Assembly: GCA_016191285.1 (NCBI GenBank)
Contig: JACPPA010000035.1
Coordinates: 1 to 62,350, forward strand
Direction of reading: 5' to 3'
DNA from: Gammaproteobacteria bacterium
GTDB lineage: Bacteria > Pseudomonadota > Gammaproteobacteria > Ga0077536
DNA length: 62,350 nt
The translations under genes were made by a program, and so were the position numbers. Positions 52,742 to 54,930 of this stretch are shown here, piece by piece. Under the pieces are notes generated by a model. That model saw only the letters and a list, made by a program, of their open reading frames with translations. It was not told where the DNA came from and searched no databases. Position 1 is the stretch's first letter, and the number at the start of each line of letters is the position of its first letter.

Positions 52742-52857
52742 CTTTCTTCCCCTTCCACGGTCGTAGTCCCTGAAATCCCGTTCCATGGGCGTTGGTAGAC
52801 AGCAAAATGCACGAGGGCTACCATCGGCTTGCCGCCTACGAAACCGTACTCCGTGCG

Positions 52858-52894: not shown

Positions 52895-52949
52895 GCTCGT
52901 GCAGCGGTACTAAATAAAACGTTTTGAAGCTATTGAGGAGGAAGGTCAG

Positions 52950-53258
52950 ATGAACAAAAACAACTTGAAACCGGTCGTCGCCGCAATTGGCTCTACGGTC
53001 GTCTTAGCGCTGTCGGCTGCCGCGTATGCCGATAACCCGTTTCAAATGGTCGAATACGGCAATCCAGTCACGGTGGCGATTGATGCCGTGGATATGAAGG
53101 GTAATAAGGTCAAGATTAACGACGAGACTGGCTTCACTTACGGTGGCGACAACATGGGCGCCTACGCGTCCGGTAAAGTTGGGACCGGCTCCAAGGATCC
53201 CGCCGTGTGTGGCTCGTTCGCAGGCACCAGCTGTTCGATGGCGCACCTACAAAAATAG
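52950..53258 (+). CDS. Exported precursor peptide of an MNIO (DUF692) RiPP cluster
   Basis: 102 residues. A signal peptide ends at AYA-D (27/28); the mature part starts DNPFQMVEYG, like bufferin-type precursors. Cys87 and Cys95 are the only cysteines, in AVCGSFAGTSCSMAHLQK at the C-terminus. Bufferins and Hvf peptides are exported and have Cys residues converted by the DUF692 oxidase to copper-binding groups. The usual EGKCG repeats are not present, so this is either a divergent precursor or a different substrate. GAGGAGGAAGGT before the ATG is a very strong ribosome binding site, fitting a highly made precursor. The oxidase gene follows after 38 bases. Confidence 0.85.
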   Translation: MNKNNLKPVVAAIGSTVVLALSAAAYADNPFQMVEYGNPVTVAIDAVDMKGNKVKINDETGFTYGGDNMGAYASGKVGTGSKDPAVCGSFAGTSCSMAHLQK

Positions 53259-53296
53259 ATCGCCATTAGCATTAGTCTACCTACGCGACCGGTGCG

Positions 53297-54154
53297 GTGT
53301 ATCGGATCCCTCGGGTACACGGCGCCGGGCTCGGACTCAGGCGGGCCCATTTGGGCCCGCTCTTGGTTTCGGTTCCATCCGCCATTGAATTCATGGAGGT
53401 CGCGCCCGAGAACTGGCTCGGGGCCGGCGGTCGCCTCGGCGCTGCCCTCGAAAAAATTGCGAGTTCAGTTCCTTTAGTCGCGCACGGCTTGCTGCTCAAT
53501 TTAGGGGGCGTCGATCCGATCGATGTGACCTTTGTCCGCCAGATAAAAACCTTCCTCGATCAATTTGACGTCCGTGTTTACGGCGATCATCTGACTTTTT
53601 GCGGCGACCAGGGACTGCTCTACGAGTTACTCCCGATGCCATTCACGGCGGACGCGATTTCGCATATGGCGAGCCGCATTCGGCAAGTACAGGATATTTT
53701 GGAACGCAGGATCGCAGTTGAAAACGCCGCGTATTATTGCGTACCCCACCAAACCCTCTCCGAACTCGATTTCATCACTGGCATCCTGGCCGAAGCGGAC
53801 TGCGATTTACTGCTCGACATCAATAACGTGTACGTCAACAGCGTCAATCATCACTACGATCCGCTGACGTTTATTCGGCAACTGCCGTTCGAGCGAGTGG
53901 CGTACGCGCATGTCGCCGGTCACCTGCGGACCGCCGATGGCCTCATCATCGACACTCACGGAGAAGCAATCATCCCGTCCGTGTGGGATTTGCTCGCGCA
54001 GACCTACGCGGAATTCGGTGTCGTTCCGACCTTGCTCGAGCGCGACGAAAATATTCCGGATTTGGATGCCGTTCTAATCGAGATCGCGCAAATTCACGCC
54101 GCTCAACAGGCGGCGACGCGCGCAAATTCGACGCACACGGCGAGCATCGCATGA
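53297..54154 (+). CDS. bufB: DUF692 multinuclear non-haem iron oxidase (MNIO)
   Basis: 285 residues, TIM-barrel fold. Typical sequence: GLGLRRAHLGPLL, FMEVAPENWLGAGG, VAHGLLLNLGG, YGDHLTFCG, IAVENAAYY, CDLLLDINNVYVN, YAHVAGH, IDTHGEAI and LLERDENIP. These His, Asp, Glu and Asn positions form the two- to three-iron site of MNIO enzymes (MbnB, TglH, HvfB, BufB). MNIOs modify cysteines in RiPP precursors. The GTG start has no clear ribosome binding site. ATGA overlap with the DUF2063 partner. Confidence 0.9.
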   Translation: MYRIPRVHGAGLGLRRAHLGPLLVSVPSAIEFMEVAPENWLGAGGRLGAALEKIASSVPLVAHGLLLNLGGVDPIDVTFVRQIKTFLDQFDVRVYGDHLTFCGDQGLLYELLPMPFTADAISHMASRIRQVQDILERRIAVENAAYYCVPHQTLSELDFITGILAEADCDLLLDINNVYVNSVNHHYDPLTFIRQLPFERVAYAHVAGHLRTADGLIIDTHGEAIIPSVWDLLAQTYAEFGVVPTLLERDENIPDLDAVLIEIAQIHAAQQAATRANSTHTASIA

Positions 54155-54930
54155 CCGACGGCGTTGAACTCGACTTTCGCGCCGCACAGCGTGCTTTTTC
54201 GCAGCACGTGCGCGATCCGGCGCGCTACCCAGCACCGAATGGGCTCGACGCACGACGCGTCGCGGTCTATCGCGACGCGGTGATCTACAACATCGAACGC
54301 TTCATGTCGGATAATTTTCCGCGCGTAAAAGCCGTCATTGAGCCGACGCGCTGGACCGATCTGGTCCGCGATTATTTGGTTCGTCATCGTGCCGATACCC
54401 CGGCGTTCGCCCGACTACCCAATGAATTTCTGGCCTATCTAACCCAGCAGCGTCACGATGCGCGCGATCCTCCGTATTTGGTCGAACTTGCACATTTTGA
54501 CTGGCTCGAAAACGAACTTGCCACCGACCTGCGTCACATCGATACCACTAGAATCGATCCGCAGGGCGACCTTCTCGACGCGCCCATCGCCGTCAACCCA
54601 ATTCACGTGGTCACCACTTACCGGTTTCCCGTGCACGCGATTGACGGTGATTACGCAGCGAGCGACGCACCTGCGCGGGCGACGCATATCGTCGCGTTCC
54701 GCGACACGGCTCACCGCTATGCCTTCCTCGATCTAAACGCCGTCGCTTTAGAGCTTTTCATGGCGGTACGCGATAACCCAGCGCGCACTGCACGCGCGAT
54801 GTTAATCGATATCGCAACCGAACTTGGGCACGCCACGCCGGCCGCCGTTATCCAAGGTGGCAGCGATATCCTGCAGCGCATGCGCCAGCGAGAATTGTTA
54901 CTCGGCACCAAGATTTCGCCCGCTCCCTAA
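54151..54930 (+). CDS. bufC: DUF2063 RiPP-recognition partner of the MNIO
   Basis: 259 residues from ATG 54151. The N-terminal helical domain has FRAAQRAFSQHVRDP and RRVAVYRDAVIYNIERFMSDNFPRVKAVI, typical of HvfC/BufC (DUF2063) proteins, which bind the precursor and assist the oxidase. LPNEFLAYLTQQ and YLVELAHFDWLENEL also match. The overlap with bufB shows that they are made together. No bufD/DoxX-type gene follows. Confidence 0.88.
   Translation: MTDGVELDFRAAQRAFSQHVRDPARYPAPNGLDARRVAVYRDAVIYNIERFMSDNFPRVKAVIEPTRWTDLVRDYLVRHRADTPAFARLPNEFLAYLTQQRHDARDPPYLVELAHFDWLENELATDLRHIDTTRIDPQGDLLDAPIAVNPIHVVTTYRFPVHAIDGDYAASDAPARATHIVAFRDTAHRYAFLDLNAVALELFMAVRDNPARTARAMLIDIATELGHATPAAVIQGGSDILQRMRQRELLLGTKISPAP

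Follow-up and report, generated by a model that had tools for sequence, protein, structure and literature searches.

The window considered here, meaning the whole stretch of 62,350 nucleotides of gammaproteobacterial DNA that was analysed, carries three co-directional genes on the forward strand, encoding a small exported precursor, an MNIO and a DUF2063/RRE partner protein, where the stop of the MNIO gene and the start of the partner gene overlap by ATGA. The next gene 3' of this trio is a pyruvate carboxylase (named from sequence), and no DoxX-like gene was noticed next to the three. The features of the locus are as follows:

52796..52824, + strand: promoter-like pair TAGACA - 17 nt - TACCAT, 125 nt upstream of the precursor start
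52935..52945, + strand: ribosome binding site GAGGAGGAAGG, read from the sequence
52950..53258, + strand: precursor gene, 102 aa, composed of signal peptide, NPF module and DPAVCG tail
52950..53030, + strand: Sec signal peptide, residues 1-27, cleavage AYA/DN (by eye)
53031..53081, + strand: NPF module, residues 28-44, DNPFQMVEYGNPVTVAI, resembling the NPF...GYMVA start of HvfA-type precursors
53085..53255, + strand: DPAVCG tail, residues 46-102, Cx7C, a separate exported domain in other lineages
53208..53210, + strand: Cys87 codon (P-A-V-C-G), invariant in 19/19 and 27/27 (see below)
53232..53234, + strand: Cys95 codon (T-S-C-S), invariant in 19/19 and 27/27
53297..54154, + strand: MNIO of the HvfB family, listed with a GTG start, the open frame reaching back to 53276
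54047..54049, + strand: codon of MNIO Glu251, which follows Asp250 (aligned with the catalytic base) and corresponds to the Phe250 position of FonB
54151..54930, + strand: DUF2063/RRE partner of the HvfC family (NF050145, PF09836)

The order of exported precursor, MNIO and DUF2063 partner that a preliminary description had given for positions 52950-54930 was confirmed by matches to PF05114 and PF09836. Its broader label of a bufferin- or Hvf-like cluster holds in part: the cluster is of the MNIO RiPP type and of the HvfABC kind, and the bufferin half of the label falls away. The MNIO scores 319 bits against PF05114 (cut-off 25) and passes the HvfB model NF003818 (377.1 bits, cut-off 360), fails the BufB maturase model (256.2 bits, cut-off 310), and takes an HvfB-type position in the MNIO tree described below; on these three grounds we assign it to HvfABC and not to bufferins. 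The partner reaches 75.1 bits against PF09836 and 222.9 bits against the HvfC model NF050145 (cut-off 142), which places it among the type-1 DUF2063/RRE proteins. The best solved relative of the MNIO is 3bww (E 1.2e-70), in comparison with which the active-site motifs DxNN, DTHG and ERD are all retained, and the partner has a structural relative in 3dee (E 1e-4).

The precursor is atypical, as the preliminary description had recognised. It has a signal peptide and, by eye, a mature DNPF start after an AYA cleavage site, lacks the EGKCG repeat, and contains only two cysteines, Cys87 and Cys95, within AVCGSFAGTSC. Judged by its sequence, it is an HvfA-like signal peptide/NPF module joined to a 57-residue C-terminal Cx7C domain, and a profile of its family also matches EGKCG-type precursors, over a stretch that begins at position 2 and ends at about 50-90. 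By analogy, the signal peptide is expected to double as the RiPP leader: HvfA is modified poorly once its signal peptide is missing, and the Sec signal is described as acting as leader for HvfBC (PMC13419390).

An NCBIfam scan gave no match for the window precursor, which has neither the EGKCG nor the KCG repeat of HvfA. When 27 proteins carrying the tail were searched against Pfam, no family matched at E 0.01 and DUF2282 was not among the matches; at E 1 the window precursor gave a single chance-level match, to HupE_UreJ_2 (12.2 bits, cut-off 24.5). NCBIfam matches among the 27 were to HvfA models only (NF050137 in two, NF050188 in one), and EGKCG repeats occur in just two of them, the chimeras described below. 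A PDB profile search with the precursor family returned a best E of 0.6. An AlphaFold2 model built from 27 sequences was of poor quality (pLDDT 46, pTM 0.18), and we therefore claim no fold for the precursor.

To place the precursor among its close relatives we used a sample of 36 genomes of the window's bacterial family, the order comprising the same 36. Matches were found in 19 of these genomes. The match in G027 and extra loci in G015, G016 and G035 proved to be the leader of KCG-type precursors and were excluded, giving 20 Cx7C loci in 18 genomes, window included. At 17 of the 20 loci (again with the window) the MNIO and partner lie directly 3' of the tail gene; one of these precursors, in G008, is cut by a contig end with its tail still visible. 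The other three loci comprise two orphan paralogues (G001 contig 63 and G005 contig 162) and G028 (L041 1-986), a draft 57% complete, where an intact tail gene that retains both promoter-like pair and ribosome binding site is followed by a short, broken MNIO remnant.

The 19 full-length family precursors share 38 invariant columns, both cysteines included; every one has an NPF start and ends in a CG[TS]FxxxSC tail, so that the proposal of a subfamily with a conserved tail is upheld. The window precursor shares 65-76% identity with 17 other family genes and 54% with the most divergent orphan. Mean pN and pS (uncorrected, over pairs of 15 sequences) were 0.217 and 0.709 for the signal peptide, 0.135 and 0.645 for the tail (a ratio of about 0.2), and 0.104 and 0.604 for residues 75-99.

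Scanning public genome contigs with the profile of the precursor family yielded 21 loci. One, L073 from Microbacterium, matched over 31 residues at 39% and was discarded as due to chance; the remaining records are titled as metagenome-assembled bacteria, mostly Gammaproteobacteria. Four metagenome-assembled records titled Klebsiella pneumoniae (L054, L056, L063 and L070) carry family loci, apparently the same ones as those in G005, G013 and G020, and these titles look wrong.

The strong ribosome binding site noted earlier was also substantiated by the family. GAGGAGGAAGG is unique within the window, and GGAGG stands within 20 nt upstream of the start in each of the 17 precursor genes that occupy the family's usual locus, as against 0.5% of random 20-mers from the window; the two orphan paralogues have no GGAGG before their starts. 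This count includes G028 and leaves out G008, where the contig end cuts the gene, as well as the two orphans. The promoter-like pair is likewise present in all 17 genes (spacing 17 in 16 of them, 18 in one), and 0.2% of 200-nt stretches drawn at random from the window contain it; the pattern is post hoc, having been read off the same genes that were counted.

Beyond the family, the profile was run against 369 genomes of the class and matched in 39. The match covers the tail in nine (the window's genome, G015, G017, G101, G154, G167, G279, G335 and G374), G232 has a tail fragment only, and the remaining matches are to the N-terminal part, most of those with an upstream gene read bearing KCG-type repeats. 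The G232 fragment (L198 602-710 and upstream) is a decayed tail remnant with stops around it, lying between an EGKCG precursor and its MNIO. In a phylum-wide sample of 398 genomes the tail was found in the window's genome only.

We found 15 intact tail genes outside the family: four each in G101 and G335, two each in G167 and G279, and one each in G374, G779 and G154. Seven of these tails follow an NPF start, one a TPF start, and seven have neither, of which two look like lipoproteins by eye. Both cysteines, at a spacing of 7, are present in 27/27 proteins of the tail alignment. At 13 of the 15 loci no MNIO stands beside the tail; the other two (G335 contig 349 and G101 contig 46) have both MNIO and partner, and here the tail is fused behind EGKCG repeats to form chimeras. 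The preliminary description had held that homologues without a DUF692 neighbour would speak against its reading. Such homologues do exist, at these 13 outside loci and at 3 of the 20 family loci, which have no intact MNIO, whereas the remaining 17 family loci keep the linkage. From these two sets of loci we take the tail to be a module and not a dedicated RiPP core.

In G154 a leaderless tail gene has trmB on one side and pyruvate carboxylase on the other, with an MBL-fold gene, thiS and thiG upstream as in the window; hvfBC are absent and the pyruvate carboxylase is reversed relative to the window. The family operon may have grown around a pre-existing stand-alone tail gene of this kind, or G154 may have lost parts.

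Several other neighbours of outside and orphan tails might hint at metals. At L132 4586-6867 and L133 4440-6722 the gene immediately 3' of the tail is a PQQ methanol/ethanol-type dehydrogenase (TIGR03075, about 700 bits, above cut-off), with response-regulator-like genes nearby, and the dehydrogenase is followed by a TonB-receptor-like gene (in L132, 148.5 bits in the family search, where the cut-off is 223.5). One orphan tail (L045 6418-6864) is followed by a pseudoazurin-like gene (86.1 bits, short of the 109.85 cut-off), and a CusA/CzcA-family pump (L126 959-5139, above cut-off) is found some 1.2 kb away from a lipoprotein-like tail, separated from it by other genes. Since the neighbours vary from locus to locus, a metal role drawn from them is a lead only.

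The kind of tail and the kind of MNIO tend to occur together. Genomes with NPF-start tails also possess an HvfB-type MNIO (the 18 family genomes, broken in G028, as well as G167, G279, G101 and G335), and genomes with leaderless tails only (G154, G374 and G779) have bufferin-type MNIOs only, with HvfC matches under cut-off; this is raw co-occurrence, and 'bufferin-type' in these other genomes denotes tree place, motif or upstream precursor and not the BufB model. The co-occurrence of leader and enzyme fits the description of the Sec signal as leader for HvfBC (PMC13419390). The cysteine pair is equally invariant in the leaderless tails of G154, G374 and G779, so that the cysteines are kept without HvfBC, and judging from these genomes that is the strongest point against regarding the tail simply as a RiPP core.

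The residue after the catalytic Asp was read in 57 MNIOs, 18 of which were classed as 'other' or 'none' and lie outside the fractions given here. It is Glu in 16/17 Cx7C-linked MNIOs (Leu in G035), Phe in 18/20 KCG-linked MNIOs (one Ala, one not read), and Phe in both chimera-linked MNIOs. On the EGKCG side the exceptions to Phe are Ala in G004 (L144) and G018 (L186) and Tyr in G008 (L089). In a tree of 56 MNIOs, from which one short row (L118) was omitted, the 17 Cx7C-linked enzymes and the Glu enzymes of G007 and G012 form one clade of 19 (support 100/98) that falls among 45 HvfB-type rows and off the bufferin-type branch. The chimera MNIOs sit on a separate branch from this clade, and L101, which has a KCG-type precursor and a motif that was not read, is a long branch on the bufferin side. 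As the Glu enzymes make up one clade of one bacterial family, the match between Glu and substrate amounts to roughly one correlated change and not to many.

The corresponding residue has been studied in FonB, where Phe250 follows the catalytic Asp249, contacts residues around the modified Cys in a model, and affects selectivity around that Cys; F250A and F250D still yield thiooxazole, and F250D alters substrate tolerance (PMC12668002). According to the same source FonBC rejects Pro at every position of a 5-mer and charged residues following Cys, tolerates Ala as the sole residue after Cys in double variants, with no mention of whether Ser was among those tried, modifies an N-V-C-G-G substrate once and leaves a single-repeat substrate unmodified (PMC12668002). 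Cys87 (P-A-V-C-G) and Cys95 (x-S-C-S) each fit these rules in part, and if the Glu enzyme does act on the tail it must therefore follow somewhat different ones.

Gene content within the family provides further natural experiments. In five drafts, 86-97% complete (G002, G003, G009, G010 and G020), PF05114 matches nothing but the Cx7C-linked MNIO, which thus has no other obvious task. In G007, G011 and G012 the sole MNIO, of the Glu type, occupies the usual locus but has no precursor there; the partner is also absent beside it in G007 and G012, and the contig of G011 ends there. Each of these three genomes has one MNIO match and one HvfC match (L193-L195, L202-L204). The HvfC gene lies at a different locus, flanked by lysS- and argG-like genes (named from sequence), and immediately follows an HvfA-like precursor that bears EG[AS]CGG and EGGCG motifs, no MNIO intervening. 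These half-systems probably work in trans, in which case x-C-G motifs are also within reach of the Glu enzyme, and Glu would be no strict lock for the tail. G014 stands outside this comparison on account of a contig end.

The genome of the window itself has two further MNIO loci: one (G000:C58, L002/L051) behind an HvfA-type precursor with KCGNIC repeats, and another (G000:C27, L001/L052) behind a bufferin-like precursor, where the MNIO open frame of 568-585 aa runs into an apparent partner domain.

Beyond the observed anatomy, gene order, conservation, modularity of the domain, clade-specific Phe-to-Glu change and five single-MNIO drafts, we infer the modification of the tail, its product and its metal. 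With moderate confidence we favour an HvfABC-type operon whose enzyme pair has switched targets, from EGKCG repeats to a compact Cx7C domain, so that the product would carry one or two thiooxazoles and perhaps a single Cu(I) site. In the cytoplasm the RRE of the partner would bind the signal peptide/NPF module of the precursor, and the MNIO, mixed-valent diiron as in HvfB (PMC13419390), would oxidise Cys87 and/or Cys95 of the tail, the most likely product being a 5-thiooxazole (-4 Da each). Sec would then export the modified precursor, the signal peptide would be cut after Ala27, and the mature 75-residue protein would hold one soft-metal site on the modified cysteine(s), most likely Cu(I). 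In favour of such retargeting are the gene order at 17 of the 20 family loci, the invariant cysteines, the five single-MNIO drafts, the Glu clade and the NPF start of every full-length family member. Support also comes from a second family, where two genomes have the tail joined to EGKCG repeats next to an MNIO that sits on a separate tree branch. Counting against it in the gene content are the two orphan paralogues, the G028 copy beside a broken MNIO, and the Glu MNIOs without precursor or partner in G007 and G012; among the enzymes, the origin of the Glu clade in about one event, the Leu of G035, and the EGKCG-like precursors with Ala or Tyr enzymes also weigh against it, as does the incomplete fit of both cysteines to the FonBC rules.

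Alternatively, the tail may not be the substrate at all, its cysteines forming a periplasmic disulphide or an unmodified metal site while the MNIO pair acts elsewhere or on non-Cys residues. This would suit the invariant cysteines of leaderless tails in genomes without an HvfB-type MNIO, the report that the outer Cys pair of bufferin 1 is a disulphide (PMC12452194), and the failure of either cysteine to satisfy the FonBC rules fully (PMC12668002). However, the linked MNIO is the only one found in five drafts, the precursor offers no cysteine besides Cys87 and Cys95, and the HvfA-like start is retained on 19/19 full-length family tails, and for these reasons we regard this explanation as unlikely, if worth keeping in mind.

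Within the favoured reading of a retargeted operon, a narrower case can be made that a thiooxazole forms at just one of the two cysteines while its partner remains a thiol, producing a mixed thiooxazole/thiolate site. Several distant tails have A-K-C-S at the second Cys, which is near the K-C motif, and Pro lies three residues upstream of Cys87, where the FonBC rules would disfavour it (PMC12668002). On the other hand, the N-V-C-G-G that FonBC modifies once resembles A-V-C-G (PMC12668002), the Ser after Cys95 may be disfavoured, and the Glu enzyme may obey other rules; we consider this sub-case quite improbable. Lastly, that the locus is an ordinary bufferin is hardly credible, since it shares with bufferins 1 and 2 (DUF2282; 6/12 Cys) the exported precursor and the precursor-MNIO-DUF2063 order, but has no DUF2282 match, 2 Cys instead of 4 or 6/12, and an MNIO that is under the BufB cut-off and off the bufferin-type branch.

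Among known systems the closest are oxazolin/HvfABC of H. influenzae and the fontiphorin system FonABC (Lys-Cys captophorins), with which the window shares the HvfB and HvfC cut-offs, gene order, active-site motifs, and a signal peptide with NPF start, as in the EGKCG-type precursors examined here. It differs from them in having no EGKCG or KCG repeat, in placing its two cysteines in a conserved 57-aa domain, and in an MNIO with Glu, not Phe, beside the catalytic Asp. The CxxxxC precursors of Antoine et al. 2025 (PMC12452194) are likewise exported, linked to MNIO/DUF2063 and equipped with paired cysteines, yet as described in that text their spacing is 4 versus 7 in the window. The HvfA-EF-hand fusion Buf_EGKCG|EF-hand_5 of the same study (PMC12452194) also joins an HvfA-type start to an unrelated domain but retains EGKCG, whereas the window tail replaces the repeats, unlike the two chimeras of another family. 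The precursor groups of that study are Buf1, Buf2, EGKCG/oxazolin, CxxxxC, TIGR04222 and adjamnio, none described as Cx7C in its text; it leaves hundreds of further precursors, with 1-18 Cys, unclassified (PMC12452194), and members of the window family may be among them. Our literature search found no description of the precursor family, the tail domain or the Phe-to-Glu change. The strings DPAVCG, PAVCGTF and AVCGSF were not found in the paper texts, a weak negative that says little because alignments are usually published as figures.

Tentatively, and as a possibility broader than the retargeting itself, the tail could be a new exported domain that serves some metal or redox function of its own, independent of MNIOs, and that HvfABC has captured at least twice: once in the window's family, where it replaced the EGKCG core (with the Phe-to-Glu switch), and once through fusion to that core. 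If this is true, the captured tail would be a minimal single-site thiooxazole metalloprotein built on a defined domain rather than on a repeat peptide, and would illustrate a route by which MNIOs pass from peptides to protein domains. Fontiphorin, an EGKCG product with seven sites, aggregates with copper, which hinders its study (PMC12668002). A tail substrate with at most two sites and a clear enzyme residue change would make both MNIO substrate choice and the copper stoichiometry of thiooxazoles directly testable, with natural controls at hand in the tails without MNIO, the tail-EGKCG fusions and the split gene sets. As the same domain stands alone in other bacteria, a known enzyme family may here have been redirected to a new substrate.
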